Below are positions 12,069-30,349 of a DNA stretch of 64,000 nucleotides, one piece after another. Numbering within the stretch: position 1 is the stretch's first letter; each line of letters starts with the position of its first letter. This DNA is from Mesostigma viride. Taxonomy: Eukaryota; Streptophyta; Mesostigmatophyceae; Mesostigmatales; Mesostigmataceae. The notes under the pieces are model-generated. The model did no database searches. It was not told the DNA's origin and saw nothing but the letters and a program-made list of their open reading frames with translations. A program made the translations under genes and the position numbers. The DNA is taken from positions 395,808 to 459,807 of the forward strand of contig RPFO01000130.1 in assembly GCA_009746045.1 (NCBI GenBank), read 5' to 3'.

Positions 12069-12115
12069 TGTAGGAAGAGGCAGTGGGAAGGGGGAGCGGT
12101 TTACCCTTTCGGTGT

Positions 12116-12280
12116 TTACTTGGTTTGCTGGGCCTTGCCCAGCTTCTCCATCATCGTGGCGCTTTGCAGGGCCATCTTCATGGCCGGGTTGCTCACCAAG
12201 GAGGCATCCTCCTTGAGAGCAAGGAGGTGGCCATGTCGCGTTTGCGTGCCATTATATCCTAGCCTATCACTTGGAATCAA
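12116..12280 (-). pseudogene. C-terminal remnant of a gag-like ORF
   Basis: A minus-strand frame open from 12280 to a TAA at 12116-12118, just upstream of the polyprotein ORF. It contains ALKEDASLVSNPAM and ends MMEKLGKAQQTK. Position and composition suit the end of gag in a two-ORF PAT element, but it does not match the end of the gag at 29348-30349. The frame is cut at a TAG in a short duplicated stretch (12270-12302). Confidence 0.4.
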
Positions 12281-13734
12281 CTAGTCATCTTGGAATCAAC
12301 TAGTCTCTTCGAGTAATGAAAAGAGGGCTCTCAGCCGAGGACAAGGAACTGTCCCTCGCGCCTGATGACCCCTTCTTGATCCCCTTGTGTACCGTCGCGT
12401 GCCGCGTTTGAATATCCTTGCTGGGGCGTTAGCTAGACGCTCCAACTACTCTAATTGCGACAATATGATGGTGCAAGAGGGTGCTTTTGCCTCCCCTGCT
12501 ATAGAACAATGCTTTCACAACACACACTTTGCACAGTCTGATGATGAAGCCGCACATGCGGAATTTATTGAGAAAGTTAATACAATTACAACACGTTGAT
12601 AGTCTCAATATCGATGCACTCCATGCTCACGAGCCCGCAGTTAGGCAGCGCTCCATGACATGCTACCGGCCTTGCTCCCAAGGAAAGGGAGAAACACGAA
12701 GGCCACTAACGAGAGACTCGAAGAGACTACACGCTGCGTGAGAGTCCTCTTCGACTATGAACCAAACCATTCGTCATGCCACACGCATGACACACGCCAC
12801 ACTTGTCAGTCCAGCCAGGAATGCCAAAACTATCTTGCTGCCTGAACCATGCAAATAGAAACCGCATTCCAGTTGCCGTCCTGGCTTTCTACCACACATG
12901 CCAACAAAAGCAGGAAGGCATCCCGACAAATCTAAATTGCTACCCTGTTGCCGATCTCATCTCCTAGAGGCTCCGGCATTTCTGTCCCTGGGAATGTCCG
13001 ACATTGAGTCACGTCCAGCAAGGTCGAAGCATAATATCCTTCAGACAATCTGCACGCTCACACCTTGCGTGTGAGTGGCCCAGCAAACATTGCGTCTAAT
13101 CGTTCCTTTCTAGAAGAAATCCCTTTGTAGGGCTGCCAGCGATTTCGCATTCATTCCAGCGATCTGGCTCCGCACCGCAAATTGTCCTTTTCCATTTTCT
13201 GTCCAGTCCTCATAACGTTGACCCGCTATTCTACACCACAAAGACACCTGGCCTGTCAATAGCCTCGGCGCTGTTGAAGTCCAGCAGTCCAGCTTCAGCT
13301 CCAGCTGTCCACTAACACGCGTATGATCCTCTCGACGCTGCGCACTTGTGCTGCCGTCCGCTCAAGTCAGTGCTGCGCGCCCAGCTGTGCCTGGCCCGGC
13401 GCGCGTGCACGTACACTTTCGTCCGCTCTTATGCTGCAAGTGCTAGTGTCCCCCCCGGTCACTAGCCTTTGTCGAAAATGCGTAGAAAACAAATTCCTTG
13501 CGCACGTCACCGGTCTTGTGCATAGTGGGCGCCGCCCGGATGACATAGCTCGCGTCCGTGACAGCTGTCGCGTCTGCGTGCCACAATCTCCGGCGCCACC
13601 ATGGCGGCTGGCCACTCAGCTTAATTTGGTAAAACCCAAATGAGCTGAGCTGACGTGCCTGCCTTAACTGCATGCCCTGTGGGGTGGGCGAGGACCTGTC
13701 CCATGATTCCCCCCCTCGCTGGCGACCGGCCCCA
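12281..13734. other. Region between PAT-like element and Gypsy-2; probable Gypsy-2 3' end
   Basis: No recognised coding domain. A near-exact 16-bp tandem duplication (TTGGAATCAACTAGTC) lies at about 12271-12302. GACAGCTGTCGCG lies near 13561, a palindrome core also found at 42046-42063 and 45849-45862. The 3' LTR of Gypsy-2 should lie here, and a polypurine run GAGGGGGGGAA follows the PHD ORF on the minus strand, but no second LTR copy was found to define it. Confidence 0.4.
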
Positions 13735-14211
13735 TCACGAAGACAGCGATCGTACCAAGACAAGGGCAGCGGTGACCGCAGTCAAGCTGCGGGAGGTAAA
13801 CTGCGCAGCGGTGCACACTGGACAAAACCAATCCCCCTCCGGAATGCTGGTGACCACTGGCTGCAAGCACTGCATGTGCCAACCACAGTTACACTGATCA
13901 CACAATAACATGGACTCCGCCTGATCGACCCGGTGACAAACCTGACACTGGGCGTCCTTGACTCGGCGAGACGTGTGCGGTTGGAGGTCGTGGACCAAAT
14001 TGGGCAGCGAGCAGGGACTGAGATTGCTGAGGTTGTCAGTCGTACGGCTCCCGTCGGCGCCCTCCAAAATTGCCACTCCCGATGGTTTGATAGCCACAAT
14101 GCGCAAAATGGTGGGCCCCGCCTCCACATCCAAAGTGTGCTTCAGCTGAGTGCGCAGGAAAACATACTGCCCTGGCCTAAACCGCAGCTGGCGAGCCATG
14201 TATGCCCCCCC
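13735..14211 (-). CDS. Integrase C-terminus with PHD finger (frameshifted part of Gypsy-2 Pol)
   Basis: This frame continues the integrase after a 7-base G run (14205-14211); one base fewer would join the frames. It starts ARQLRFRPGQYVFLRTQ, the GPY/F-like end of Ty3 integrases. It then has a C4HC3 PHD finger: CQVC, MLLCDQC, GWHMQC, DWFCPVC, with all eight zinc ligands present. PHD fingers read histone H3 tails; at this place many gypsy elements carry a chromodomain. Inference: it steers integration to particular chromatin. Whether the shift is decay or recoding is unknown. Confidence 0.85.
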   Translation of the reverse strand, partial: GGAYMARQLRFRPGQYVFLRTQLKHTLDVEAGPTILRIVAIKPSGVAILEGADGSRTTDNLSNLSPCSLPNLVHDLQPHTSRRVKDAQCQVCHRVDQAESMLLCDQCNCGWHMQCLQPVVTSIPEGDWFCPVCTAAQFTSRSLTAVTAALVLVRSLSS

Positions 14212-15526
14212 GGCGCTGAGCGTAGCGCAGGGAGTCCCTGTGCTGAGCAATGAACAAGTTGTTCATCGCGATGGGCATGACCTTCTTAAAAGTCTCTGCC
14301 CTGGCCAGCACCTCAACCAAAAATTGCTGAGCGTTGTCGAAGGCCATGGGTTCGGGGTGCGCAACCTGTGCCTCCGTAGGCAAAAGAGGATTACGCCCGA
14401 ACAGAAGGAAATACGGGGAGAAGGTAGCGAGAGACTCCTGGGGAGACATGCGATAACCCATGGCAATCCATGCCAACTCGCGATCCCACCTGGCCGACTC
14501 CGGCACCTGCAGGCTCCACTTGCGCAGCGCCTGCTTGACGGTCTGCACCAATCTCTCAGCCAAACCATTGGCCTGAGGATGCTCCCGAGAAGTGCGACGG
14601 TGATCAATAAGACATCCATCCAGCAACTCCTGGAACTCACCCCTGAACTCACCACCCTGGTCCGTGACTACCTCCGCGGGAGCCCCAAACCTGGTGATGA
14701 TGTCTGCAAAATGCTTCGCTGTGGTAGCGGCATGCTTGTCAGCAATGGGGATCAACTCAACCCATTTGCTAAAGCTCTCCACGCATACCATGACATAGAG
14801 GTTGCCGTCAGGGCTCTCCTGAAACGGCCCGCACAGATCGACGTGCCAGCGATAAAACAAGCCCTTGATGGGAAGCGACATCAGCTCCTTGGCACCATGA
14901 TCTGCGCTAAAGTTAGCCTTGGTTCGAGCACACGGGACACAGCTGGCCACTACCTGGGCCACTGTGTGTCGCATGTTATTCCACCAATAGCTGGTCCGTA
15001 CGAGGCTGAGCGTGCGATTGCCACCCAAGTGACCATACCGCTCGTGGTACGCCTGCACTATAGCAACGCGCTTGTCAGGCGGTGGGACGACCACCCTACG
15101 CTTGCCCAACAGCTTGTACAAAACCCCATCTTCCCAACCATAGGTTGCAGCCCTGTGCTGCACCCTGTTCAACTCCGTCGCCTTCTGAGCAGGAGTCCAA
15201 TCGACTGGAGTAGGAGTCAAGACAGCACCCTGCACTTGCTCCAAAACTCGACCATCTAGCCAGATATCAGCGGTGTAGCAATCAGCAAGAGAGCTACGCG
15301 CTAAGAGAGCCTGCACAGCGATCAGCTGCTGCAGAGAAGGATCAATGTCAAAGGACAGAGACCTACCCTCTTCCATAGCGCACACAGCTTTGGATGGCGT
15401 GAATGGCGACGGCCGCACCGGGTCGTCGCTGATGATGCCGAAGTCCGCCACAGAGTACTCGACACTGCGCCACCACGCCTCCTCCTCATCGTCGGCCGCA
15501 TACCCAGCAGCGTTCACAAAGACCAC
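14177..15526 (-). CDS. Gypsy-2 integrase
   Basis: 449 codons. An H-x-x-x-x-x-H...C-x-x-C zinc finger is visible (YHERYGHLGG; CVPC), then the DDE core: WHVDLCGPF, VVTDQGGEF and HPQANGLAERLVQ. All three acidic residues are present. The frame starts inside the end of the RT/RNase H ORF (overlap 15514-15526, -1 relation) and ends at a G-run frameshift, after which the PHD-bearing frame carries on. Confidence 0.92.
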   Translation of the reverse strand: MVFVNAAGYAADDEEEAWWRSVEYSVADFGIISDDPVRPSPFTPSKAVCAMEEGRSLSFDIDPSLQQLIAVQALLARSSLADCYTADIWLDGRVLEQVQGAVLTPTPVDWTPAQKATELNRVQHRAATYGWEDGVLYKLLGKRRVVVPPPDKRVAIVQAYHERYGHLGGNRTLSLVRTSYWWNNMRHTVAQVVASCVPCARTKANFSADHGAKELMSLPIKGLFYRWHVDLCGPFQESPDGNLYVMVCVESFSKWVELIPIADKHAATTAKHFADIITRFGAPAEVVTDQGGEFRGEFQELLDGCLIDHRRTSREHPQANGLAERLVQTVKQALRKWSLQVPESARWDRELAWIAMGYRMSPQESLATFSPYFLLFGRNPLLPTEAQVAHPEPMAFDNAQQFLVEVLARAETFKKVMPIAMNNLFIAQHRDSLRYAQRRGGIHGSPAAV

Positions 15527-17367
15527 AGAACCGACGAGCCCTCGGCACCCATGGCCCGGGCTCCAGTGTGGTCAACAGTGGTAGGCATGGCGTATCGGGA
15601 TAGCACATCGGCGTTGACATGGTCCTTGCCGGCCCGATGCACAATGGTCATGTGGTACTCCTGGATAATCATGGCCCATCGGGCGAGCTTACCCGTCAGG
15701 TTGGTGTTGGTCATTAGCCACTGAAGCGGCTGGTGGTCTGTCACCAGAGTAAACACGCGCCCAAATAAATACGGGCGAAAGTGCTTGATGGCCCACACCA
15801 CAGCCAGTGCCTCCCCCTCATAGGAAGAATACCGGCTCTCCGCTGGGTTGTTGCTGCGACTAGCATAAGCAATAACGTGCTCGCGCCCATCACCATCCTT
15901 TTGCGCCAAGACCGCACCCAGTCCTACCTTGGACCAGTCGGTATATAACACAAATGGCAAAGCATAGTCAGGGGCGCGCAGAATCGGTGCCGACGTGAGC
16001 TCCTGCTTGATTGTCTCGATGGCGCGTTGCTGTGCGGGACCCCACGCCCACACGCACCCCTTCTTGAGTAACTCGGTCAAGGGCTTCACCTTGCTGCTGA
16101 AGTTCTCAATGTAACCTCGGTAATAGCCAGCCAAACCCAAATACGCCCGCACCCCTGAGACATCCGTGGGTACGGCGGCCTGCGCAATGGATTCGACCTT
16201 GGCGGCATCAGGCGTCCGGCCACCCGGCACAATCTGATGACCAAGGAATGAGAGGGTCCGCTGGGCGAACTTGCACTTCTCAGGGTGCAGCCGCATATTA
16301 TGCTCCTCGAGAGCCAAGCGAACCTGCTCCAAGTGCGCCAGGTGCTCCTCAAATGTCGCGCTAAAGACGATTACATCATCAATGTAACAAGCGGCGAAAG
16401 GAAGACCTGCAAGCACTTTGTCCATAGCTCGTTGGAAAACAGCACTAGCGTTGCGGTGCCCAAAGGGCATGCGCACCCACTCATACAAATTGCCGCCCCC
16501 CCAGAATGCAAGCTTCCGCTGATCCTCCGGCGCAACTGCGATCTGATGAAAGCCGCTACGCAGGTCCAGCGAGGACACAAACTTCACATGAGGAGATATC
16601 TTATCCAGGACATCATCCACACGTGGCATGGGGTAACGGTCCACGGGTGTGTGTGCATTCAGCAACCGCAGATCGGTGGCCATGCGCATACCCGTCCATG
16701 CCCCGGTGATAGCGTCCTTCTTGGGCGCAACGACAACGGCAGCAGCATAGCTGGAGGAAGATTGCCTGATGATACCGGCATCCTCTAACTCCTTGCATTG
16801 CTCGGCTACAAAATCCAACTCGGCCTGACTCAGGCGATGCTGGCGTCGGAACAAAGGAGTGTCAGTGTCCAATGGAACACGCATGGTCCCACCATTGAAA
16901 CACCCCAGTTCATCACTTGTGAAAGCGAAGGCCCCCCTTGCAGTGCCTAGCCACTTTAGCATGGCTGAGCGCTGCGCATCAGAAAGGTGTTCGCCAATAG
17001 CCCAGGGGTGCGTATCCGCGGGATCACCCACAGCTACCGCATGTGCCTCAAGATGCGGCGCCCTAGCCGCATCGTCGTGGAACAAGGAAAAGGCTGCCAC
17101 ACCTGGTGTGACACCCACCGCCGGAGCCTCGCGTGCCGCACGGTGTATTACCCGATGCAGCGTGGGCTCGCCGGCCAGCACGGTGCTGGTCAGCAGGGCG
17201 GTCATGAGAATGATAGTCCACACCTGTCGCAGACGCCACCCCCATGCTGATGAAGTCCCCGTCGCTGCAGGGCGCTTCAGTTTGGCTGCGCGCCTCAACC
17301 TGCTGAGGCGGATTGGCTGGGGACGCCCCCCCAGACTGGCGCACGGCAACCGATGCAAGCAGCACAT
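15514..17367 (-). CDS. Gypsy-2 reverse transcriptase and RNase H
   Basis: The RT is typical Ty3/gypsy: GMRMATDLRLLNAHT, SSLDLRSGFHQI, MPFGHRNASAVFQRAM and the catalytic CYIDDVIVFS. RNase H follows with LYTDWSKVGLGAVLAQKDG, YEGEALAVVWA, LVTDHQPLQWL and NADVLSRY. The first ~70 residues include a hydrophobic stretch (VWTIILMTALLTSTVLAG) that is probably methyltransferase-linker sequence read in another frame. The methyltransferase C-terminus lies in a different frame immediately upstream, so the original polyprotein is frameshifted between about 17063 and 17367. The first ~80 residues given by this frame may not be native. Confidence 0.93.
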   Translation of the reverse strand: MCCLHRLPCASLGGRPQPIRLSRLRRAAKLKRPAATGTSSAWGWRLRQVWTIILMTALLTSTVLAGEPTLHRVIHRAAREAPAVGVTPGVAAFSLFHDDAARAPHLEAHAVAVGDPADTHPWAIGEHLSDAQRSAMLKWLGTARGAFAFTSDELGCFNGGTMRVPLDTDTPLFRRQHRLSQAELDFVAEQCKELEDAGIIRQSSSSYAAAVVVAPKKDAITGAWTGMRMATDLRLLNAHTPVDRYPMPRVDDVLDKISPHVKFVSSLDLRSGFHQIAVAPEDQRKLAFWGGGNLYEWVRMPFGHRNASAVFQRAMDKVLAGLPFAACYIDDVIVFSATFEEHLAHLEQVRLALEEHNMRLHPEKCKFAQRTLSFLGHQIVPGGRTPDAAKVESIAQAAVPTDVSGVRAYLGLAGYYRGYIENFSSKVKPLTELLKKGCVWAWGPAQQRAIETIKQELTSAPILRAPDYALPFVLYTDWSKVGLGAVLAQKDGDGREHVIAYASRSNNPAESRYSSYEGEALAVVWAIKHFRPYLFGRVFTLVTDHQPLQWLMTNTNLTGKLARWAMIIQEYHMTIVHRAGKDHVNADVLSRYAMPTTVDHTGARAMGAEGSSVLWSL

Positions 17368-17823
17368 ACCCGACCTGCAACACCGACATAGCCTGGCCTA
17401 TCAAAGACCAGCGCTCACTCTCGAGCACGCCCGGCAGCGCCGAGGCCCCGACATGAAAACCCATGCTGGCCTCACGAAATTCTGCGGGTGGCTGCACCAA
17501 CAGACCGGTGGTAGTGTCCCAAACGAGACCCTTACCCCGATCACGGTATGCTGTCGACCCTTGGTAACTGACCAGGGTCGGCAGTGCATACATGGGGCTC
17601 CCGACCCGGTTGACGCGTGCATACGGTGGGCGATCCTCGCTATCCACCTTCTGCGTGACTAGGTGGGAAGGCAATGCTACCTCCGCAGACACACTCGGAT
17701 GCTGCCTTGCTACGGCCCCCAAGACCGCCTGCACACCGGTCGCACACGCCACGTTGGTCCAATAGGCACGCAAACGATGCCACCCCTGATGCAGCTTTCG
17801 CTTTAAGCGCCTGAGCACGCCAC
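17335..17823 (-). pseudogene. C-terminal half of Gypsy-2 DNA methyltransferase
   Basis: In the frame open at 17063-17959 the minus strand reads QGWHRLRAYWTNV (motif VIII region; compare HRxRxYWTN), then a target-recognition-like stretch, ALPTLVSYQGSTAYRDRG, PPAEFREASMGF (motif IX region) and ERWSLIGQAMSVLQVGYVLL (motif X region). These are the parts missing from the half at 27322-28386. The upstream edge is not exact; I place it where the reading leaves the Copia-A tail. Confidence 0.75.
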
Positions 17824-18205
17824 AAGGCCGTGACCGTTGAAGCCAGGTCCCTAGGTGGGCGAGGCGCATGGGCAGGACCCTGACCCTCCGGCGAGGCCAC
17901 GCTAGGCGGGCCTCCCACATTATCCGTGGGTAGCACAGGAGGTGAGTCACTACGTGCACTAGGTCCCGTCAAACCCACCCCATCCTCATCCCACCCATCC
18001 ACGGGGTCATATTGGGGCCCAGGGGAGGGGGGGGGTGTAGCTGTGTCTGCCCCTGGGAGCGACCCGTGGGGTACCACCTCAGATGCTACGACAGGCGCAT
18101 TATCCTTCACTACCCACCCCAGTGCCCTGTTGGCTGCCAGCTCACTCTCCATGCTATCCCCTTGCTTATAGCCTGCCACCGATGCCCATGGTACCCTATA
18201 TACAC
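17824..18205 (-). pseudogene. Frameshifted continuation of Copia-A Pol
   Basis: At about 18196-18205 a TA duplication (GTGTATATAGG) shifts the frame. The native frame appears to read RVPWASVAGYKQGDSM, paralleling RVYHVSWHRIKPV of Copia-B, and continues as a Pro/Asp/Gly-rich linker to about 17830. The 881-residue ORF instead ends in an unrelated tail. Confidence 0.55.
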
Positions 18206-20755
18206 CCGATCATTCCACTCTATGTCTATGACCCGCAGCGGCCAGTCTAACTTTGTGATGGCCCCAGGCCCCTGCATGGTGCCCCGTTTGCCGCTGGGCG
18301 AGCTCTCCTTGTGGAACATGACCAACTGCCCGACCTCAAAAGCACTAGACAAATCAGGCAGCGTGGCATCCTTGAGCCGCAGCTTGGCGGCGGTATCCTG
18401 TAGATGCTGTTGGTATGCCTCTACTACCTCGGGTGAGTAGGTGCCCGCTGACAGCCCCCGAGGCGTGACTAGCCCAAAGCCCTTGACATCAAGCACGTGC
18501 CTATGGTTGCACACATGCATGAGCTCCTTGCACCACGCCGTCTTGACCGCGTAGGACTTGCCATGTGGGTTATCCTGTCGCTTGGCTGCCACAGTCTTGA
18601 CATAGCTTACAGTGCGATCTATCATGCCCATATTGCCGTGATCCTCACGCCCCACGATGACCACGGCCTCCATCCCCGGCAGACCTTGCACACAGCGGAA
18701 CTGCTGGTCTAGCATGAGCTCCACTACGGGATGAAAGAAAGCCAGGCTGATCTTGATAGCCCTGTGCAGGTCAGCCTCAAACATGTGAGGCAGCGGCTCA
18801 ATGTAGGTGGCCTTGCTGAACCTATCCTTGACTATGAAATAGGTGTCCCCCCCTTCCATGTGCATGACATCCCCCACAAGGTACCCTCGCTCCAAGGGTG
18901 GAGTCTTGGCATGACGTCTACGCGACTTCTTCCTGATCTTGATGCAGGCAGGACACTGAGCACGCACATTCTTCAGCTCGTTGTATAAAGGTGCCCCTAA
19001 CATGTGTGCCCCCTCTACCTCGGCTTGGGCCTCATGCCCGTATGCACGGTGCATCTGGTATGCTAACAGTTTCAGGGTGACAGCCTGAGGTGCAGTGGCA
19101 TTGTCAGGATTCTCAACAGGTGGGGTGACTACTGGGGTAGTGACATTGGCTAACTGGGCAGCTTCAGAGGCTGCACGAAAGGCCGCCCTTGTGAGCACCT
19201 TGCCAATGTGAAGATCCACACTAGGGTGGTGTGTACCGAGAACATCTGCCCGCCCAGCATTCTCTTGCACTGTCACAACATTCCTCATAGGCCCAACCGC
19301 CCCAGTATCTAGCTGGGGTGCTGCAGTAGTGCTTGGTCGCTCGGCGTTGTACACACCCGACCTAGAAGACACCACATTGCTTAGGTCACGCATTGTAGAC
19401 CCGTGCTCAGGAAGCACGTGATCCTGGCGCGACAGAGCCAGAGCAGCATCAACGGATTGCGTGAGCACATCACGGAATGAGACAGAGGATGCAGTCACGT
19501 TGCTTTTAGGAACGACATCAGGCTCTACGACAGCCCGGTTCAGCGTGACGCATTGAGCAAAAGAAGGGGTATCGAGCGTGCTCTCACCTGACTTTCGTGC
19601 TGCCCGTCGCTCTGCCCACTCCTCGCGTGTGCCGTGGACGACGATGCGCTTGGCCTTGCACGCCTCCACGCTGTGACCACGCAGAACGTCGTGGCACTTG
19701 CGGCAAAGGTTGTCCTCGAGCTCCAGGTCCGGGCGAACTCGGCAGTCATCCCTGACATGGCGACGTCCGAAGCAGCGCTCACAGCGTTGCTTGCGGTCAG
19801 TAGACGCCCCCTGCTGCCGCTTGGCCGGGGGATGATCACCCTGCTTGGCGTCGCCACCATGCCCGCGCTTGCGCCCTCGCTGGCCCCCGTTGTTGCCGTG
19901 GCCGACGACCTTTTTCAGGATGGCCGTAAGCTCCGACCGCGTAATTGGAGCCTCTGCGCCTGAAGAAGAGGACGCGCCGGCATCCACCTTGCGCAGGGAT
20001 GGCAGAGCAGCCGAGGCAGCCGGCTTGGACTGCGCACTCTTGAAGCATGAGATCAAATACAGCATGCCCTCGTCGAAACTGACGGCACTCTTCTTTTTGA
20101 GTTCCGTCGCTATGGTCAGATGCACATCCGACGACAGGTCGCATTTCTTGAGAAATCGATTGCACAGAAAAATGGGCTTGAGAGTATCTAGCAGCTTGTG
20201 CTTGTGCACGAAGACCTGGAAATCACGTGCAGCCCCGGGCAAATTTGCCTTATTAACTGCATAGCCCTCGAAGTCATTGAAGGCTTGCTCGTCGGCCTCT
20301 TCCTTAGACCGCGACAAGTGGGCATCTAGACCGTTGTAAAAAACTTCCCAGGTTTGTTTGTTGTCGTCCGCAATGCGAACTAGATTGGCAATGTTTGGGT
20401 GCTTTGTTGTACTGCAGAATACTGCACGGAACTTGCCAATCAGCTCCGAATCCTTGTCTGCGCGTCCATCGCGCAGACGCTTGAGAGCAGCTAGAAAATC
20501 TGCTGCGTCGTCCGCCGTATAGTCGGCCGGTAGATCTGCGGGCACCTCCGTTTGCTTGAGAGGGCCGCGATTTAGTGCATCGTCAGCAGCAAGCATCAGG
20601 TGCTTGAACTGCTTGGCCAGTTCAGGTTGCGCCACGAGGGTTTGCATCAACCTCGTGGCCTCGTCCGCACTAAAGCGTGGCAGGACGGACCCTGCGGCCT
20701 CGCCACTTGGCGTATCTGTGTGTTCGCCCGTGCGGCTCCGTGTACCGGAAGCCAT
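18110..20755 (-). CDS. Copia-A Gag-integrase polyprotein
   Basis: 881 codons from an ATG. The N-terminal ~300 residues are gag-like. Two zinc knuckles follow: CERCFGRRHVRDDC (C-x2-C-x4-H-x4-C) and CRKCHDVLRGHSVEAC (C-x2-C-x6-H-x4-C). From about residue 560 there is an integrase: H-x4-H (MHRAYGHEAQ), CPAC, KTPPLERGYLVGDVM, LMLDQQFRCV and VIVGREDHGNMGMID. Its C-terminal part (RGTMQGPGAITKL) resembles a GPY/F module. Gag and integrase are fused without protease between them, as in Copia-B. The last ~30 residues are out of the native frame. Confidence 0.85.
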   Translation of the reverse strand: MASGTRSRTGEHTDTPSGEAAGSVLPRFSADEATRLMQTLVAQPELAKQFKHLMLAADDALNRGPLKQTEVPADLPADYTADDAADFLAALKRLRDGRADKDSELIGKFRAVFCSTTKHPNIANLVRIADDNKQTWEVFYNGLDAHLSRSKEEADEQAFNDFEGYAVNKANLPGAARDFQVFVHKHKLLDTLKPIFLCNRFLKKCDLSSDVHLTIATELKKKSAVSFDEGMLYLISCFKSAQSKPAASAALPSLRKVDAGASSSSGAEAPITRSELTAILKKVVGHGNNGGQRGRKRGHGGDAKQGDHPPAKRQQGASTDRKQRCERCFGRRHVRDDCRVRPDLELEDNLCRKCHDVLRGHSVEACKAKRIVVHGTREEWAERRAARKSGESTLDTPSFAQCVTLNRAVVEPDVVPKSNVTASSVSFRDVLTQSVDAALALSRQDHVLPEHGSTMRDLSNVVSSRSGVYNAERPSTTAAPQLDTGAVGPMRNVVTVQENAGRADVLGTHHPSVDLHIGKVLTRAAFRAASEAAQLANVTTPVVTPPVENPDNATAPQAVTLKLLAYQMHRAYGHEAQAEVEGAHMLGAPLYNELKNVRAQCPACIKIRKKSRRRHAKTPPLERGYLVGDVMHMEGGDTYFIVKDRFSKATYIEPLPHMFEADLHRAIKISLAFFHPVVELMLDQQFRCVQGLPGMEAVVIVGREDHGNMGMIDRTVSYVKTVAAKRQDNPHGKSYAVKTAWCKELMHVCNHRHVLDVKGFGLVTPRGLSAGTYSPEVVEAYQQHLQDTAAKLRLKDATLPDLSSAFEVGQLVMFHKESSPSGKRGTMQGPGAITKLDWPLRVIDIEWNDRVYIGYHGHRWQAISKGIAWRVSWQPTGHWGG

Positions 20756-21094
20756 CGGGATTTTTATGAATACAAGTTAAAGCCCGACCGGCTCAGCTAT
20801 GGCGGTCGGTCACGTTGAGCTTGGGATAAGGTGAACACAGAGAACTGCCTTCGGAGCTAGCCCACCACTGGTTTATGTCTTAGCCAGCAAACCCTATCCG
20901 GTTAGCCGTAACCGTGGGACAAGCTAGCCGTCCGTACTGACCCGGATAAGGCCCCGGACTGGGGCCTAGGTGGCGCCGGCCCTAGGCGCCGCCCTTAGAC
21001 CGGTCGCCCGCATCGGACCGCCGGATTATAGCCGGCGGCTGAGCGGACGCTAGCGGAAGGCGTGCGGACGGACATGGGGAACTCAGAGCCAGAT
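20756..21094 (-). other. Copia-A leader and LTR remainder
   Basis: Lies between the gag ATG and the Copia-B insertion. On the minus strand it has a TATA-like GGCTATAATCC, palindromic GC-rich blocks around GGCGCCTAGGGCCGGCGCC (about 20970-20990), and a short AT-rich stretch before the ATG. No second LTR copy is available, so the LTR end is not defined. Confidence 0.4.
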
Positions 21095-21099
21095 CCTAG

Positions 21100-21555
21100 A
21101 GTTGAGCCAGGTGGCTCATATGCAATGGATGCCACTATAATACAGATTAGTACAGCGTTGAAAGAATTAGTATTGGCATCCGCATAACAGTACAGTAGTA
21201 GAAGCCAGTCAGCTGCTAAGGATCGGAATATGTCCTTGGTAGTTGTGCTGCTTCTGGTGCGACGTCAGAATAACCTACGCCGTACAATCGTATCTAGCGC
21301 AAAGTCTTTGTATGCGCCAAGTATCTGCAGTACCAAATAGTTGGTTGCTGCAAGTGTTTCTAGAAGGATCTATTCCACGTAAGTCATTGACGTGGATTCG
21401 TTGACGCAATCAATTGCGCGTTGACGAGAGTGAAAGCGAACGCAATATATTCAATTGCTGTGCGTAAAGTCATTAACGAAGTTGAATACGAAAGCAAAGA
21501 ACATATGTGTGTGTGTTTTCAATTACAAAGCATCAAAACTTGTTCCAGCATAACT
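21100..21555 (+). repeat. Copia-B 5' LTR
   Basis: 456 bp, preceded by CCTAG at 21095-21099. The termini AGTT/AACT form a 4-bp inverted pair. It should carry the promoter; no clear TATA box stands out. The base after the LTR begins TGTATTGAG, the expected place of the primer-binding site, which I could not match to a tRNA. Confidence 0.95.
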
Positions 21556-21614
21556 TGTATTGAGATTTGTGTTTACACCATCGACATAACATCGCCTACT
21601 TTTCAATTTTTTCA

Positions 21615-22700
21615 ATGGAGTCTGATCGTCGCTCTTCTAGCCCTGCTGACAGTGGTGACGAAAAGCGTAGACACCACCGGCCTTCGGACAGTGATGAGGA
21701 AGGGCCAGAAAAAAAGCGGGCGGAAAAGATATCAAATCTCAAGGCGATGCACGACTTGCGAGGCAACATACCAGCTCCTATTTCTAGACGCCCCTCGCTG
21801 AACGAGCGGCAGGCTTTTGTACATAAGATGGTGGCCCTGGTGGAGCTGATGGAGGAGTTGAAGATAGAGAAGCCGCTGGAATTTCTTCGGTCCACGCGTT
21901 TGTACGACTCGTCAGCAAACCTGAGGTTTTTCAAGCTGCTCGAGAGGGGAGCAAACAACAAGGCGCCCCTCGATTGGTTTCTGAAGGAGGTAATTCGTCT
22001 TTTCCAGCCGAAGCAGGAGGATTTACTGATGGAGCACCTCGGTAATTTCGTCGGCTGGATGTGCCCTCCGGGGTGTGATCGCTTGGAGAACTTCCGGGAG
22101 TACTGCGATATGCTGGACGAGAGTATAATTCCGTGGGATCCGGCAGTCCAGCTTATTCAATGGGTCCGGGCGGCGGATTTTAGCCCGGAGGAGCGGACGT
22201 GCGTCATGTCCCAGTTGAGCGGTTGCTTGGCTGACCTGGTCGAGGGTCGTCGTCGCTTGGAGACGCTGTTGAGCGGATCGAAGCTGGCCGATCTGACTGC
22301 CAGAACTGCAAAGGTAAGCAAGGTGAGTGAGTCCCCTGCTAACATGCAGTCTTTGGCAGCCGAGGTCAACCGTATGCACACGTTGCTGGGTCGCTTGTCC
22401 GTTCCTGCTCAAGGGTCGCAGCTGGCTGTGTGCACTTTTTGCGGCAAGTCTGGCCATGCAGCAGCTGTGTGCAGGTCAAGACAGAAGCAAGCTGGCTGCA
22501 ACTACTGTGGAAAGCCCGGTCATATGGAGGACGTGTGCAGATTCAAGAAGAGGATCATTCATCCAGTTTCCAACAACCCGGCGGGTCGCCCACCTGCTCC
22601 TCAAGGGCGGGCCTGCTGGAAGTGTGGTCGTCTTGGGCATCTCTCCAAGAAGTGCCCCAGCCACAAGAATCCCAGCCCCAAGGATGAGCAGAAAAATTAG
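21615..22700 (+). CDS. gag: Copia-B Gag
   Basis: I start at the ATG at 21615 (MESDRRSSSPADSGDEKRRH); the frame is open upstream, but without an ATG. 361 residues. A charged N-terminus is followed by an alpha-helical capsid-like region and three CCHC knuckles: CTFCGKSGHAAAVC, CNYCGKPGHMEDVC and CWKCGRLGHLSKKC, each C-x2-C-x4-H-x4-C. Three knuckles are more than the usual one or two. It forms particles and packages RNA. Confidence 0.93.
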   Translation: MESDRRSSSPADSGDEKRRHHRPSDSDEEGPEKKRAEKISNLKAMHDLRGNIPAPISRRPSLNERQAFVHKMVALVELMEELKIEKPLEFLRSTRLYDSSANLRFFKLLERGANNKAPLDWFLKEVIRLFQPKQEDLLMEHLGNFVGWMCPPGCDRLENFREYCDMLDESIIPWDPAVQLIQWVRAADFSPEERTCVMSQLSGCLADLVEGRRRLETLLSGSKLADLTARTAKVSKVSESPANMQSLAAEVNRMHTLLGRLSVPAQGSQLAVCTFCGKSGHAAAVCRSRQKQAGCNYCGKPGHMEDVCRFKKRIIHPVSNNPAGRPPAPQGRACWKCGRLGHLSKKCPSHKNPSPKDEQKN

Positions 22701-25700
22701 ATGCCCTGTCAAGTCCTGATGTGACTGTGCCTTGCACCGGGCTTGCACAGGAAGATGTTACAAATGCGGACGAGGTCCAAGGGGGGCCCCATGGGGACGG
22801 GACCCCATATGTATCACAGCCTGAACTGATCTCAGACAAGCAATGTTCTTGGGCACATGGGAACCCTTATGCTGTACTCTGTCACGATGATGATGACTCA
22901 ACCAAGGGAATACTGGCTGAGGTGAATGAACCAGCTGGTGCTGCAACAGCTGATGATCAATACTGCTTGCCTGAATGCAATAATAACAAAATAAATAATT
23001 TTCCAGTCCTGGCTGATTGTCAGGCTGAAGGGATTGACATTTCCCACACTGAGTTGGCCAAGAAATTGCATGTTATTTGTGGCCATGGGTCTAATGCCTT
23101 GCCCCTGTGTGCTAAGTTGAGAAGCAAGGGGTTGGTAAGTGCATTGAGGCAAGTTATGGCCAAGTGTGGATGTACCCAGCTGGCCAATAGACCACCTCGT
23201 TATCACACGAAAACCCCACCTGTGGAGAGAGGACATATACAAGTGGATATCCTCTTCTTCTCAGGATGGAAGCACTTGCCGTATATCATGGCAGTGGATG
23301 AGTGGTCTAGATATAAGGCCTTAGAGCCTATGGTCTCCATGCATAAAGAACACTTATATGTGGCTATGCAGTTAGTGCTAGCACATTTTCCTGTGATTAC
23401 CCACGTGCAAACTGACCTTCAATTCAGGCCCCTTCAGCAGGTGGCCGGATCTTCTGGATTGGAGTTCCTTGTGTTCGTGGGCCGAGAGGATCATGAGGCT
23501 CAAGGGAAGATCAATAAAATGGCCAGTGAAGTCAAGAAGTTACAGGCATCCGGTGACTACCCGGGGTTGCTCAAAACTAATTACCTGGATAGGACGGCTG
23601 CTTGTAGGGCCCTTGAATCAACTTTAAATGAGGGCAGAGTGTTGAGGATCCCATTTACTGATCTATGGGTGACTCCTAAGGGCCTGAATTATTCTTTGTA
23701 CCCTGAATCCACGATGAAAGCCTGGAATCAATATTTAAATGATGAGCATCTCAGGCTGAAGAGAAAAGATAGATATCGGGGTTCCATGAATTTTAACCAA
23801 GGTCAGGCTGTATGGGTCTATAAGGAGGGACCTCCTCTCAAGAGGGGGAAATGGGAAGGCCCTGCTGTTATTAAGGACCTCCAGGTAGACCAGAAAACTG
23901 CTGATGTGGAACGTGATGGAAGGGTCTACCACGTATCTTGGCACAGGATCAAACCAGTCTTGCCCGATGTAGATGTGTTGGGCCCAAATAATAAGAACAA
24001 TCCGGGCAATGAAGAACTGGTCGTCCCATCAGTACGTCAAGAGGTAAACCAAGCGAAGCCAAGCCAAACCCAACTCGGCGGTCTGCTACCCACATGGCAA
24101 GAGGCAATGCAGGGGGGACCATCTGAATCTGATCTGACCGGTGTACAACGGGATGACGAACAGATGAGGGTTGCTTTGTCCTGCCCTATGACTGCATCTC
24201 ATGGAGGGAGTTTTGTAGAGCCGGGGTGTGGCATTGCACTCCCTGCGGGGGCCACAATAGGTGAAGAGGCAAAGCTAAGTGAGGCTGTATCTCTTAAGAG
24301 GAAGGTTATGGATTTAACCCCTGGTGAGCCACAGTTGGCTAAGAATTCAGCCAAGTGTGAATGCCCGATTGCAACTCCTCCTTATTGCAATCAGGAAGGA
24401 GCCATCAATGGTTCTGCCCCAGAACATGGCCCATTGGGTGGACTGCAGCCATCCAAGAGGCAGAAATTCTCTCTGTCTAATGTTGTTAAGTATTTGCAGC
24501 GCCCTAAGGTGGCATTGTTAAATGTCCCTAAGGAAGATATCCTTCTTATCAACGGGTTCGCAGTGGACAGCCAGGCAGAGGTATCCATTATCAGTCCCGA
24601 AGATATAGAGGGTTATACTATCCTTCCCAGTAAATGGAAACGTATACAAGATTTTAATGGGAAAGTTGCCTACCCCGTGATAGGTGAAATCCATGTCCCT
24701 CTACTTGGTACCTTAACTCCTATTTGCGTAATAGAGGGATATGATGGACCAATCATTATTGGTCAGCCGTTTCTCCTGCAAAAGGGTGTCAGTTTGTATG
24801 AAGGGAAGGAGCTCCGTCGGGAGGGATGTAACCCAATTCCCCTCAATAACTTTACCTGCCAATTGCCATTGGCGCGTGTGGCGGATGCTATGTGGAGCTC
24901 AACCCCTAAGGTGGCATCAATAGCAGGAAGTAAGTGGGCTAAGGTTCCCCCTGCCAAGGAGCTTATTACTCCTACTGCTTTGGACCCGTCTTCGCTTGGC
25001 TTGAGTTTCCATAGTTTGGCAAACAAAAGTCAAGTGAAGTGGCCGCAACTCTGTGAGGAGTGCTCTACTTATGAAGGATTGGAAGGGTGGAGATCAGCCA
25101 TGAATAAAAGCTTGGACGAATGGTTCGAGCTTAACTGCTTTGAGCCCACTAATGAAATGCCTCCAGATGCACAAATGCTTCGCCTCAAACTCACCTTGAA
25201 GAAGAAACAGGTGAAAGATGAAAAGCCGATCCCTCATGTGAGACCAGTCTTGAACCAATTTCATGGAACGAGTGACATGACCAAGGAAGAGTTGTATACC
25301 CCAGGTCTGTCGCACATAGCATTTAGGCTGGTACTCTGTATTTTACTGGGTGCCTTGAACAAGGGCCTAGCATACCTGGCTGCAGTAATGGACTTTACCA
25401 GAGCGTTTCTGCACAGCAGTCAGAAGGTGGCTGAGAATCTCTGGAAAGGCCACAGACCCCTCTTCGTAAGGACGCCAAAGTTCTGGCTCCCCGAAGTTCA
25501 TGCCAAGTATATGAAGATCCTAAAAGGGGTAGAAGGTCTGACCAGTAGTCCAGCTATCTGGAGGAAGACATTGGAGCCATTCCTGACAGGATTGGGCTTC
25601 ACTGTGAGTACATTATGTCCTAGCCTGTTCGTAAGAAAGGCTAAAGGAAATCCTGCAGTGCTAATGCTACATGGGGATGATACCTTCCATATGGGAGAGG

Positions 25701-26593
25701 CAGACTGGGTTCACAATATTCATGCCCAAGCTAACGCAACCTTCCCCGTTGGAAAAAGAATAGATCTAACATTTCGGCAATCTGTACCCTACTGTGGCAT
25801 GGATCTAACCCTGTTCAAGAACGAGACAGGATGGCATCTTAAGATGCAACTTTCTAAGGCTTATAAGGATAACCTTCTTAACAGCCTTAAAGAGTTGGGA
25901 CGCCTTACGCCCAATGATTGCCCCAAGTTACGGGGAAAGCTGGGCTGGATGGCAGTTACCATAAGTCCTGACTTGGCGGTCATTGCTCGAATGCCTGATG
26001 ACATTTTAATAAAGATGGGGGTTAAGAATCTGATAAAATACATTGAGAACTCACCTCCACTTGTATTATCAGGCATTGACTGGGAAAAACCCATTCAAAT
26101 TATCACATACTCTGATAGCAGCCAAGAATCTCGCAAGATTGACAAACTCAGGGCGAGGGCTGCTGGGGTCGTGACCGTCGCTAATGCTGCAGGTGTTCCC
26201 TCTGTGGTGGCCTGGTATAGCTATCTGCAGAGAAGAGTCTTTGAGGGCATTGATACTGCAGAATGCAGGGCCTATGCTGAGGCTGTTCGCACATCAATGT
26301 ATGTTCGCGAACTCCTTCATTGGATTCTTCAAGCCACAACTGCTCTGCAGTCTTCTATCACTGTCCTATGTGATAACTTGCATGTGGTCAGCTTCATGAA
26401 CAAGGACAGTGCTGCCAGCCCTGACTTAGACTACATCGTAGCCAAGGAACTGAGCCAAGGCGTCAAAACCCAGCACATCGAGGGTCGACTCAATGTTGCT
26501 GATGCCCTGAGCAAAACCTTTACCAAGGCTGTGGCAGCCTATGGTCTGCTTAGGGAGCTCATGAGTGGGCGTGGTCCCCTTAACATGGGCTAA
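22688..26593 (+). CDS. pol: Copia-B Pol: integrase, protease, RT, RNase H in that order
   Basis: The frame is -1 to gag and open from 22688. It has no early ATG, so Gag-Pol by -1 shift at GAAAAATTAG (22691-22700) or a reinitiation is needed. Residues counted from 22721: integrase about 100-420 (LHVICGHGS, KTPPVERGHIQVDILFF, VQTDLQFRPL, FVGREDHEAQGKI, GKWEGPAVI); aspartic protease about 600-680 (FAVDSQAEVSIISP, PIIIGQPFLL; DSQ in place of DSG/DTG); RT about 780-1080 (VMDFTRAFLHS, and LHGDDTFHMG in place of the copia YVDD); RNase H about 1125-1280 (TYSDSSQE, AECRAYAEA, VLCDNLHVV, VADALSKTF). Protease after integrase differs from both the copia and gypsy orders. Confidence 0.93.
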   Translation, partial: AEKLDALSSPDVTVPCTGLAQEDVTNADEVQGGPHGDGTPYVSQPELISDKQCSWAHGNPYAVLCHDDDDSTKGILAEVNEPAGAATADDQYCLPECNNNKINNFPVLADCQAEGIDISHTELAKKLHVICGHGSNALPLCAKLRSKGLVSALRQVMAKCGCTQLANRPPRYHTKTPPVERGHIQVDILFFSGWKHLPYIMAVDEWSRYKALEPMVSMHKEHLYVAMQLVLAHFPVITHVQTDLQFRPLQQVAGSSGLEFLVFVGREDHEAQGKINKMASEVKKLQASGDYPGLLKTNYLDRTAACRALESTLNEGRVLRIPFTDLWVTPKGLNYSLYPESTMKAWNQYLNDEHLRLKRKDRYRGSMNFNQGQAVWVYKEGPPLKRGKWEGPAVIKDLQVDQKTADVERDGRVYHVSWHRIKPVLPDVDVLGPNNKNNPGNEELVVPSVRQEVNQAKPSQTQLGGLLPTWQEAMQGGPSESDLTGVQRDDEQMRVALSCPMTASHGGSFVEPGCGIALPAGATIGEEAKLSEAVSLKRKVMDLTPGEPQLAKNSAKCECPIATPPYCNQEGAINGSAPEHGPLGGLQPSKRQKFSLSNVVKYLQRPKVALLNVPKEDILLINGFAVDSQAEVSIISPEDIEGYTILPSKWKRIQDFNGKVAYPVIGEIHVPLLGTLTPICVIEGYDGPIIIGQPFLLQKGVSLYEGKELRREGCNPIPLNNFTCQLPLARVADAMWSSTPKVASIAGSKWAKVPPAKELITPTALDPSSLGLSFHSLANKSQVKWPQLCEECSTYEGLEGWRSAMNKSLDEWFELNCFEPTNEMPPDAQMLRLKLTLKKKQVKDEKPIPHVRPVLNQFHGTSDMTKEELYTPGLSHIAFRLVLCILLGALNKGLAYLAAVMDFTRAFLHSSQKVAENLWKGHRPLFVRTPKFWLPEVHAKYMKILKGVEGLTSSPAIWRKTLEPFLTGLGFTVSTLCPSLFVRKAKGNPAVLMLHGDDTFHMGEADWVHNIHAQANATFPVGKRIDLTFRQSVPYCGMDLTLFKNETGWHLKMQLSKAYKDNLLNSLKELGRLTPNDCPKLRGKLGWMAVTISPDLAVIARMPDDILIKMGVKNLIKYIENSPPLVLSGIDWEKPIQIITYSDSSQESRKIDKLRARAAGVVTVANAAGVPSVVAWYSYLQRRVFEGIDTAECRAYAEAVRTSMYVRELLHWILQATTALQSSITVLCDNLHVVSFMNKDSAASPDLDYIVAKELSQGVKTQHIEGRLNVADALSKTFTKAVAAYGLLRELMSGRGPLNMG

Positions 26594-26850
26594 GTCACGA
26601 CCAGCCGTGGGCCTTGCCTAATGCCCCTGCGGATAGGTTTTTATCCCTTGAGGTTTTCCCTATCAACGGTTTGGCCGTCTCCTCCTGGACTAAGGTTTTG
26701 CATTCCAGAAGCGTGCCGAAGTCCAGTTCAGGAAAGCAGCTTCACTAGATGTGAAAATAAGCCCGTCAATTGATGCGGCCGATAGGGGTTTAAACACCTC
26801 TCAATACATCACATTTGCCGGTCTTATTTCACACTTGAAAAGTGGGCTGG
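26594..26850 (+). other. Copia-B 3' untranslated region with polypurine tract
   Basis: 257 bp between the pol stop and the 3' LTR. The purine-rich GAAAAGTGGG shortly before 26851 is the likely plus-strand primer. A dyad GAAATAAGACC/GGTCTTATTTCAC-like pair flanks the middle (about 26750 and 26820), possibly a hairpin in the transcript end. Confidence 0.5.
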
Positions 26851-27306
26851 AGTTGAGCCAGGTGGCTCATATGCAATGGATGCCACTATAATACAGATTA
26901 GTACAGCGTTGAAAGAATTAGTATTGGCATCCGCATAACAGTACAGTAGTAGAAGCCAGTCAGCTGCTAAGGATCGGAATATGTCCTTGGTAGTTGTGCT
27001 GCTTCTGGTGCGACGTCAGAATAACCTACGCCGTACAATCGTATCTAGCGCAAAGTCTTTGTATGCGCCAAGTATCTGCAGTACCAAATAGTTGGTTGCT
27101 GCAAGTGTTTCTAGAAGGATCTATTCCACGTAAGTCATTGACGTGGATTCGTTGACGCAATCAATTGCGCGTTGACGAGAGTGAAAGCGAACGCAATATA
27201 TTCAATTGCTGTGCGTAAAGTCATTAACGAAGTTGAATACGAAAGCAAAGAACATATGTGTGTGTGTTTTCAATTACAAAGCATCAAAACTTGTTCCAGC
27301 ATAACT
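26851..27306 (+). repeat. Copia-B 3' LTR
   Basis: 456 bp, the same as 21100-21555 wherever I compared, followed by the second CCTAG (27307-27311). Confidence 0.95.
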
Positions 27307-27321
27307 CCTAGGGCTCTAGAG

Positions 27322-28386
27322 TTACTCAACTAGCCCACCCAGCCCTGCGTTGTCACACACGATGGGCTCCCCCAGGAGTGCCACGATTGTAGCCCAGTCC
27401 TCCCGCACCGCCTGATGTGGGCTGTCACCCGCCACAACGTTCTCAAACAGATACGCAGGCGGATGGGGCTGACGCGACTGCAACAGTCCCACCACACGCA
27501 ACAGTTCCCAGAACAGCGCGCTACGTGGATCGGCTAGCCCCCGCCCTTGCCCTGCCTGGCTCAGGCCCTGGCACTCCCAACCCGCAATTACCAAGTCGAT
27601 GGCATGATGCCTGCGCAACAACTGCTGCACGTGCACCTCACCGATGGCTCGGATATCTTGAGGACATTCCCCAAACGGGTCACGCCATGCTGATGGCGGA
27701 AACTGCGCGGGATACTCTCGCGACAACACGCCACAGTGACTGAAGTACACCTGACGCGCCTTGTGCGATGGCTCTACCGCGATGAGTTTACGGCACACGC
27801 CGCCTGCGGCCAAAAAGCCTGCAATGCCCCCTCCGATCCCCGCAAACAGTTCCAACACTACCGCACCCTTGGCAAAATCAGGGGCCTGCGGTAAAATTGC
27901 AGCAGAAAAATTACCTTGGGCCTCAGAGACACCCGGTTGCACCAAAGTGAGGCCATGGCTGGCCATCTGAGGAATGGTGATGACGGCTTCAGTCACCCGC
28001 TTGCGCATAGCCAGCTGCCGCGTGGACGTCACAGCATCCAGCGACCACTGCGTGCGCATCTTGGCAATGCTCGCCGTTGGCTGAGGCAGCACCGTCCGAT
28101 GCTTGTCCCACGCCGATGAGCCCGCCGCCCGTACTTCCACCATGCTGACCTCCACCACGCCCGCAGCCGCGGAAGGGTTGAGGCGTGCAGCCCCGGCTGA
28201 AGAACTGAAGCATGAGACCGGCACACTGGCCCGCTTCAGGCCAGCCCCATCCCAATCAGGGATGTAAGATGCCTCCTCCGCCCTATAGTCCACCTGAACC
28301 ATGGCGCGAGCAAGGACATCCACCCCGAGTAGTGCGGAATATCCACACTTGTTGACTAGTTGATGAAAAATCCTGTGTGATGCAGG
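27322..28386 (-). CDS. Gypsy-2 protease end fused to N-terminal half of a C5-cytosine DNA methyltransferase
   Basis: The frame is open from 28386. It begins with a retropepsin-like end (CGYSALLGVDVLARA; compare LLGxDxL), then a linker of about 120 residues. The methyltransferase core follows: motif I LELFAGIGGG, motif II AVEPSHKARQ, motif IV AGWECQGLSQAG with the catalytic Cys (ECQ where PCQ is usual), and motif VI FENVV. The frame stops right after CDNAGLGG, before the motif VIII arginines, where Copia-A begins. The enzyme would transfer methyl from S-adenosylmethionine to cytosine. This copy is inactive because it is split. Fused methyltransferases are known in retrotransposons of dinoflagellates and charophytes. 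Confidence 0.9.
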   Translation of the reverse strand, partial: PASHRIFHQLVNKCGYSALLGVDVLARAMVQVDYRAEEASYIPDWDGAGLKRASVPVSCFSSSAGAARLNPSAAAGVVEVSMVEVRAAGSSAWDKHRTVLPQPTASIAKMRTQWSLDAVTSTRQLAMRKRVTEAVITIPQMASHGLTLVQPGVSEAQGNFSAAILPQAPDFAKGAVVLELFAGIGGGIAGFLAAGGVCRKLIAVEPSHKARQVYFSHCGVLSREYPAQFPPSAWRDPFGECPQDIRAIGEVHVQQLLRRHHAIDLVIAGWECQGLSQAGQGRGLADPRSALFWELLRVVGLLQSRQPHPPAYLFENVVAGDSPHQAVREDWATIVALLGEPIVCDNAGLGGLVE

Positions 28387-29347: not shown

Positions 29348-30349
29348 TTACGGCAACCGCGTAACTTCTTGAGTGTACGGACGTAAATGATCACGGACGT
29401 GACAGCCAGCCACCTTCCACCCTCCTGACCCCTGGCTCTCCACTAGGAGCATTGCTGCCACCACCCTCATGAGATACTCTACCCCAGCCAACTCCCCGGC
29501 TGCCGGCCCCAACTCCTTGAAGAGTGTGTCCATGGCCAGGGCGATGTTCATGACCACCTTCCTGCTTTCCTGGTTCCTCCACCCCCCTTGGCGAGTAGCC
29601 ATGATCCAACTCTTTATCCCCCCTCCATTGTCGTTGGCATCCTCGAGCACCTCGGGGAGCACTCTCTCTTGCACCCTCCAATTCACCACTTGTGCTCGAG
29701 TGGGCAGCGTCACCCCTTTGGTCTTTTTCGGCTTCCTGGAAGCCCCATCTGCCCCGGCCAGCGCATCCTTCAATTTCGTCAGGAAATCCTCTTCCTCGGA
29801 CTCCTCCTCCTCCTCCTCTACTTTGCCCGCCTGCCCCTGCTTGCCAATAATAGCCGCCAGCTCCAAGAGCTGCTCCCTCACATCCCCCGCGGCCTTTCCC
29901 TTGCTCGGGGCTGGGCTTCCGACTTTTTTCGTCCCCTTTTTCGCCCCTTTCGTGGGCCGGCGTGGTGGCTGCATCTCCTCTTCGTCCGAGTCCGCCAAGT
30001 CCCGGGCGCTTTGGAGGGCTGCCACTAGCGCTTCGTTTGGGTCCGCTGCTGCCAGAATTTCAGGCCCGTCCACGTGGTCGACCAGCAGTCCAACGACGGA
30101 CTCCAGCTGGGTCGCAGACCACCGGCTGACAGTAGTTACCCAGTCGGTCCCGAGGACCGCCTCAAAGGCAGCGCACACTTCAGGCAGGCCCGAGCAAGTG
30201 GAGAGCTCCTGATGGAGCCTTTTCTTCTGCGTCGGCCAGCCTAGTCGGCCCTTTCCCGTCTGTTTAGTAGCTGTCGGCACCTCGGGATTAGCTTTCGGTA
30301 ATTGCTTCCCAGCACCTGTCGAACCTGGCTTCCGCCCGGGCTTCGGCAT
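29348..30349 (-). CDS. Gag-like ORF of a second PAT-like element
   Basis: 333 residues from an ATG (MPKPGRKPGSTGAG). Basic N-terminus, an acidic low-complexity stretch (EEEEEESEEED) near residue 185, then a helical C-terminal region (VMNIALAMDTLFKELG). No zinc knuckle. It follows, on the minus strand, a copy of the A repeat found at the 3' end of the PAT-like element, which places it as the first ORF of that family. The RT-recombinase ORF of this copy is absent. I recognise no domain; the gag call rests on position. Confidence 0.6.
   Translation of the reverse strand: MPKPGRKPGSTGAGKQLPKANPEVPTATKQTGKGRLGWPTQKKRLHQELSTCSGLPEVCAAFEAVLGTDWVTTVSRWSATQLESVVGLLVDHVDGPEILAAADPNEALVAALQSARDLADSDEEEMQPPRRPTKGAKKGTKKVGSPAPSKGKAAGDVREQLLELAAIIGKQGQAGKVEEEEEESEEEDFLTKLKDALAGADGASRKPKKTKGVTLPTRAQVVNWRVQERVLPEVLEDANDNGGGIKSWIMATRQGGWRNQESRKVVMNIALAMDTLFKELGPAAGELAGVEYLMRVVAAMLLVESQGSGGWKVAGCHVRDHLRPYTQEVTRLP

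Follow-up and report, generated by a model that had tools for sequence, protein, structure and literature searches.

We analyzed a 64,000-bp stretch of the Mesostigma viride genome (GenBank assembly GCA_009746045.1, contig RPFO01000130.1, positions 395,808 to 459,807 of the forward strand), hereafter called the window and numbered from its first base, in which the remains of a Ty3/gypsy retrotransposon lie on the minus strand. Read along that strand, the remains comprise a protease-like end, a C5 DNA methyltransferase interrupted by other elements, a reverse transcriptase (RT) with RNase H, and an integrase followed by a PHD finger. Positions, strands and supporting matches (Pfam E-values unless stated; ORF, open reading frame; LTR, long terminal repeat) are as follows.

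27322-28386, minus: N half of the methyltransferase (motifs I-VI), with a protease-like C-terminal end ahead of it in the same frame; DNA_methylase 2.1e-12
17384-17779, minus: methyltransferase C half (motifs VIII-X), inside the ORF 17063-17968; alignment to two Closterium proteins
15514-17397, minus: gypsy RT and RNase H; RVT_1 6.8e-28, RT_RNaseH 3e-39
14177-15571, minus: integrase (H2C2 zinc domain and DDE core); Integrase_H2C2 2e-17, rve 9.9e-12
13735-14262, minus: integrase C-terminal domain, then a C4HC3 PHD finger; PF00628 4.8e-10
12300-13715, minus: probable gypsy 3' untranslated region and 3' LTR, end not fixed; by eye, a purine tract near 13715 and AATAAA near 12569; second copy not found

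The RT and RNase H followed by a DDE integrase (Pfam, window) are in the order expected of a gypsy element, and the domain matches of the gypsy parts are well outside chance. The copy itself is broken: it lacks the 5' end, and neighboring domains lie in different frames where the methyltransferase C half meets the RT, where the RT meets the integrase and where the integrase meets the PHD finger. Because the 5' end was not found in the window copy, we describe it as a gypsy fragment and not as an intact element. We regard as established the order of the domains, the unity of the split methyltransferase and the union of integrase and PHD finger in one protein of relatives.

One methyltransferase in two pieces

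A preliminary description of the window, made from its letters alone, had proposed that methyltransferase motifs I-VI (27322-28386) and VIII-X (17335-17823) lie on either side of about 9.5 kb of nested elements and belong to one enzyme between a gypsy protease and RT. The Pfam match upheld the first of these placements; a C half is indeed present, but is best placed at 17779-17384 by the Closterium alignments. We joined the pieces because uninterrupted relatives carry both, and not from any join in the window. Protein P0050 of Closterium NIES-54 is an uninterrupted ORF of 890 residues holding a methyltransferase and a gypsy RT. Three of its segments (residues 231-397, 404-538 and 578-889) match window positions 27861-27346, 17779-17384 and 17082-16057, respectively. 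The same collinear match to the N half, the C half and the RT was obtained with residues 3-133, 137-271 and 322-596 of P0054 from Closterium NIES-65. Between the N-half and C-half matches there are 6 residues in P0050 and 3 in P0054. The N half is 34% identical to P0050 residues 231-397 and 40% identical to the M. viride protein P0001, which continues without a break from N-half sequence into the motif VIII region, and the C half is 34% identical to P0050 residues 404-538 and 33% identical to P0054 residues 137-271. Alone, the C half had no match in Pfam, NCBIfam or the PDB, and its conserved blocks are those that we take to be motifs VIII-X. Judged by these alignments, the two pieces are one enzyme, as had been proposed. 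The suggested search of both halves against protein databases revealed no split between families, and an origin of the halves in different methyltransferase families was rejected, since both align to the same two Closterium proteins.

The position of the enzyme within the polyprotein is given by the same relatives. Pfam reports DNA_methylase (1.6e-5) and RVT_1 (1.9e-25) on P0050, with a protease trace (9e-4, below the curated cut-off) before the methyltransferase, and P0001 has a protease-like stretch ahead of the methyltransferase that was seen by eye, at a place where Pfam reports no protease. The N half in the window opens with what resembles the C-terminal end of a protease, as judged from the P0001 alignment and, by eye, from P0050, and the N-terminal remainder of that protease was not found elsewhere in the window in searches with P0001 and P0050. 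The methyltransferase lies within the Pol ORF in relatives, between a protease trace and the RT in P0050 and before the RT in P0054, and this order is kept but interrupted in the window. The proposed place between protease and RT was thus correct as an order, on the evidence of P0050, but the window retains only the protease's C-terminal end.

The roughly 9.5 kb between the halves proved to be nested elements, as the preliminary description had held, namely a plus-strand copia and a minus-strand copia-like ORF of 888 residues:

21096-27306, plus: young copia that lies within the older insert; its LTRs are 21100-21555 and 26851-27306
18110-20776, minus: 888-residue gag/integrase-like ORF of the older copia-like insert that splits the methyltransferase; integrase similarity to copia

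The copia LTRs are 456 bp long with zero mismatches, the lone mismatch of the 460-bp blastn match falling in flanking bases, and CCTAG flanks the element on both sides (21095-21099 and 27307-27311). Pfam matched a zinc knuckle (1e-8) and RVT_2 (4.3e-6, below its cut-off) in this element. The integrase comes first in the copia pol (22688-26593, plus), and the RT occupies residues 851-1010; a stretch between them resembles a protease by eye, which would be an unusual order if real. Over 302 columns, the integrase part of the 888-residue ORF shares 33% identity with that of the copia (1.9e-37); the ORF had no Pfam match, and neither an RT nor an LTR pair of the older insert was found in the window. 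This insert may be a shortened element. The young copia lies about 22 bp inside its edge. The copia-like insert split the methyltransferase, and the second copia entered that insert. A 6-bp direct repeat is present at the edges of the methyltransferase insert. Such sharing occurs in 14% of random window pairs, and the repeat was rejected as too weak to prove a target-site duplication.

We placed the window RT in a tree of 72 rows: the two window RTs and 70 of 83 proteins matched by blastp, from which 13 with short matches were left out. It fell into a 10-row clade (support 100/97) with P0138, Klebsormidium P0090, Calypogeia P0123 and six Closterium proteins; its position within that clade is less sure (88/87). 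A methyltransferase is carried by two of the nine relatives, both from Closterium (P0050 and P0054). The other seven have no methyltransferase motif, but their gene models begin inside the RT or at most about 110 residues before it and are therefore uninformative on the presence of a methyltransferase. The clade member P0035 starts with a stretch that resembles, by eye, the end of the P0050 methyltransferase, and P0138 carries RNase H, an integrase and PF00628. The second window RT belongs to another gypsy element (1-5366, minus), which has gag, protease, RT, RNase H and integrase and is cut by the window edge; its RT falls among Chara and Closterium proteins (6 rows, 98/95), and the chromodomain-bearing Closterium P0024 is placed elsewhere in the tree. 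The groupings of the two window RTs point by themselves to a streptophyte alga as the likely host. An RT fragment was also found at 51751-52545, minus (RVT_1, 3.7e-9). Searches of viral contigs gave no relatives of the N half, the RT or the integrase alignment, and GTDB contigs gave no match to the methyltransferase alignment. A single viral match to the methyltransferase alignment was recorded, on IMG/VR contig L001:3202-3549 at 31% identity.

The integrase and its PHD finger

The preliminary description had also stated that the integrase ends in a C4HC3 PHD finger. In the window copy the finger is in a separate frame, and the statement was borne out by relatives, for which we took the best 120 of the 264 proteins that matched the integrase ORF. 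The PHD ORF opens with the integrase C-terminal domain, so that alignment to both ORFs alone need not reach the finger. Both the integrase and the PHD ORF of the window were aligned by 82 of the 120 proteins, and in 68 the alignment ran on from the integrase into the finger proper; PF00628 was reported on 70, and the complete C4HC3 pattern was present in 61 (62/121 with the window included). These relatives include Klebsormidium nitens P0073 and P0093, P0075 of the liverwort Calypogeia fissa, and many metagenome proteins. The window integrase is 53% identical to P0073 over the aligned part, and P0082, P0110 and P0138 additionally carry RNase H (Pfam). In relatives, integrase and PHD finger are one protein, and the PHD as a chance neighbor of the integrase was rejected, since relatives align across the integrase into the finger. 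The finger is common among relatives of the window integrase and is not a private capture.

All eight C4HC3 zinc ligands are present in the window PHD. Among the best 60 of 106 matches to solved chains, the nearest were BAZ2B (4.5e-15), Lid, BAZ2A, CHD4, WSTF and ATXR5, with PHF12, MLL3 and others after them, and the finger most resembles BAZ2A/B- and KDM5-type fingers. An AlphaFold model (mean pLDDT 84.7, pTM 0.56) gave good superpositions that include BAZ2B and BAZ2A (47-50% identity, 1.2-1.4 Å), and the matched BAZ2A structure, at 47-49% identity, is bound to unmodified histone H3 lysine 4 (H3K4). The window PHD has Glu at the acidic-wall position, which was set by the BAZ2B alignment, and two residues ahead of the zinc His it has Gly instead of Trp, at what we presume to be the methyl-lysine cage position; Trp occupied that position in 0/62 PHDs examined. 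Because of its likeness to BAZ2A/B, its acidic-wall Glu and its lack of a cage Trp, the finger is predicted to bind the unmodified H3 tail and so to read unmethylated H3K4. We hold the missing cage with more confidence than the acidic wall. Published work reports that an acidic-wall Asp or Glu is rarely found together with the Trp needed for methylated K4 (5/36; PMC5415848), and that KDM5A/B PHD1, PHF21A and CHD4 prefer unmethylated H3K4 (PMC6979384).

The enclosing DIRS-like element

Split direct repeats in the order A1...B1-A2-B2, which is typical of DIRS elements (PMC5890265), enclose the whole nest from 30800 to 8234. The parts attributed to this outer element are:

30421-30800, minus: A1 repeat; 3 mismatches in 380 bp against A2 (8402-8781)
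29348-30385, minus: lysine-rich ORF of 345 residues directly after A1, likely ORF1/gag by its position; no Pfam match
8991-12251, minus: ORF of 1086 residues with a C-terminal tyrosine recombinase and, before it, a probable divergent RT-RNase H; Phage_integrase 4.3e-6, 27.1 bits
8780-8914, minus: B1 repeat; identical to B2 over 135 bp
8402-8781, minus: A2 repeat; partner of A1
8234-8368, minus: B2 repeat; partner of B1

The Phage_integrase score of the 1086-residue ORF is exactly the cut-off, and the RT-RNase H stretch before the recombinase gave a weak collinear profile match (E 0.0098, probability 4%). On the simplest reading, a DIRS-like element would have received the gypsy insertion between its two ORFs. 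The preliminary description had overlooked this outer element and its tyrosine recombinase. Its observation was confirmed and its interpretation supported in part: one gypsy element carried both a C5 methyltransferase and a PHD finger, and a methyltransferase in a gypsy Pol is already published in Klebsormidium.

Elsewhere in the window, a tandem array at 34079-41073 has nine near-identical units, mostly at 738 bp spacing with one longer interval, and a CATC satellite at 55713-56604 has about 223 copies (99% match). A dispersed 1.5-kb direct repeat is present at 31948-33470 and 46183-47703 (85% identical).

Interpretation, alternatives and meaning

We consider it probable that the window holds a broken and interrupted copy of a gypsy element whose protease and RT flank a C5 methyltransferase and whose integrase ends in a PHD finger. 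When intact, such an element would probably put methyl groups on its own DNA copy, and we predict that it would direct integration to chromatin with unmethylated H3K4. The pairing of methyltransferase and PHD finger is drawn from their adjacency in the window together with overlapping fusions in relatives.

A methyltransferase in a gypsy Pol has been known since 2018 (PMC5890265), and the earlier remark that retrotransposons capture such enzymes is in line with the KnitGypsy-Dnmt3 and SymbioDIRS-Dnmt3 elements of that paper. KnitGypsy-Dnmt3 of Klebsormidium nitens resembles the window element in having a C5 methyltransferase in the Pol ORF of a streptophyte-alga LTR gypsy, but differs in that DIRS-type repeats are reported for the gypsy itself (PMC5890265), whereas the repeats of the window are most simply those of the outer element. 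Three K. nitens proteins, whatever their relation to KnitGypsy-Dnmt3, are near the window element, with the RT-integrase protein P0090 in the RT clade and the PHD integrases P0073 and P0093 among the integrase relatives. Closterium P0050 and P0054 share the domain order, the methyltransferase motif WECQG and the RT clade, but are uninterrupted and have gene models that end short of the integrase. SymbioDIRS-Dnmt3 likewise has a DNMT in a retroelement Pol, but it is of DIRS type, with a tyrosine recombinase and no gypsy integrase (PMC5890265). Chromoviruses have a chromatin reader at the integrase C terminus like the window gypsy, but the reader is a chromodomain instead of a PHD finger. Ginger1 elements differ in being DNA transposons, and are not known to carry an RT or a methyltransferase. 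They share a gypsy-like integrase with the window element, and at least one family, Ginger1-9_HM, has a PHD finger with Ulp1 at its C terminus (PMC2836005).

The pairing of a DNA-methylating enzyme with a histone reader had been called non-standard. No description of a PHD-bearing gypsy integrase, or of its pairing with a methyltransferase, was found in the literature listings, whose scope excludes subscription journals and Repbase reports, and among the literature listed no title beyond the 2018 paper concerned retrotransposon methyltransferases. The word PHD has 0 occurrences in the main text of PMC5890265, and a search of PMC3286476 for it met solely a neighboring host gene.

Several observations weigh against the explanation that we favor. 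A repeat search with 7-base words found no gypsy LTR pair in the window. The motif WECQG (4 proteins) and the PHD pattern (61 proteins) occurred together in 0/192 fetched proteins, a gap, but a likely one, as the protein searches admit lengths of 0.55-1.75 times that of the query and numerous gene models are incomplete. On whether all domains share one ORF, the results are divided: protease trace, methyltransferase and RT do so in P0050, as do integrase and PHD finger in relatives, but the frames differ in the window and no fetched protein holds both the methyltransferase and the finger. A simple Dnmt3 label is also open to objection. All solved-structure matches of the P0050 methyltransferase piece (24/24; E up to 0.1, best 1.3e-4) were DNMT3A/B/C, but those of the window N half began with 4onj (1.1e-4) and 4onq (9.1e-4), which we take to be DRM, followed by HaeIII (0.001), and the first match of P0001 was HhaI (0.0058). 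Motif IV reads WECQG in the window, P0001, P0002, P0050 and P0054, with Glu before the catalytic Cys, a position at which Pro is usual in other C5 methyltransferases. For the finger, the top nine fold matches were large multi-domain chains (PHF1 and UHRF1 among them) with poor superposition (12-15 Å), Asp or Glu was at the wall in 15/62 PHDs, the window's included, and among 31 H3-binding PHD readers 18 prefer H3K4me3 and 10 H3K4me0 (PMC6979384). Finally, the KnitGypsy-Dnmt3 enzyme gave no methylation in yeast, a result that its authors call inconclusive because human DNMT3B failed too; SymbioDIRS-Dnmt3 enzymes showed de novo CG methylation in yeast (PMC5890265).

The finger might instead be blind to the state of H3K4 and do no more than provide the integrase with a structural or DNA-binding tail. 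The absence of the acidic wall from 47/62 PHDs speaks for such a role, which we nevertheless consider unlikely, since the eight zinc ligands are kept and both fold and sequence match histone-bound PHDs.

We give little credence to the region from 30800 to 8234 being one composite element, in which DIRS split repeats and a tyrosine recombinase would be combined with a gypsy Pol carrying the C5 methyltransferase, the DDE integrase and an H3K4me0-type PHD finger. The A1...B1-A2-B2 repeats do surround everything, and the published KnitGypsy-Dnmt3 combines DIRS-type repeats with gypsy domains (PMC5890265). Against this, the gypsy part lies without its 5' end inside the outer element and has its own purine tract and AATAAA at its end. 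Once the gypsy part is set aside, the outer element is of a size and arrangement that we take to be ordinary for DIRS/PAT elements, which we also counted against a composite. If it were true, two integration systems, a writer of DNA marks and a histone reader would be present in one mobile unit, with KnitGypsy-Dnmt3 as its relative.

Still harder to sustain is a proposal that assigns the methyltransferase to the outer DIRS-like element, in the manner of SymbioDIRS-Dnmt3, with a gypsy fragment simply lying beside it. DIRS elements with a Dnmt3 in Pol are already published (PMC5890265), and the N half sits between the presumed ORF1 and the recombinase ORF of the outer element; but a protease-like end opens the N half, the gypsy RT is directly next to the C half, and in Closterium methyltransferase and gypsy RT are in a single ORF behind a protease trace. 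That the two pieces came from two different elements and were brought together by nested insertion, as their separation by about 9.5 kb and the lack of a library match to the C half alone might suggest, is hardly credible, given that two Closterium proteins hold both pieces in the same order beside the same kind of RT.

In the gypsy element that we favor, the methyltransferase would be active and would act on the element's complementary DNA (cDNA), the action on element cDNA that was proposed for DIRS-borne DNMTs (PMC5890265). The PHD finger is predicted to steer integration toward chromatin in which H3K4 is unmethylated. DNMT3 reads unmethylated H3K4 through its ADD domain, and the element would have both halves of this de novo DNMT3 logic, an H3K4me0 reader and a C5 methyltransferase, at the two ends of one polyprotein.

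The analysis extends gypsy-borne methyltransferases from Klebsormidium to Closterium and to the Mesostigma genome of the window, with P0001 as a further, probable case from Mesostigma. The WECQG motif and the location that these enzymes have in common may reflect one older capture. It links two separate observations, gypsy-captured methyltransferases and a wide family of gypsy integrases that end in a PHD finger. If intact elements do choose their sites with an H3K4me0 reader and mark their own DNA, the logic of DNMT3 would have been rebuilt in a mobile element.

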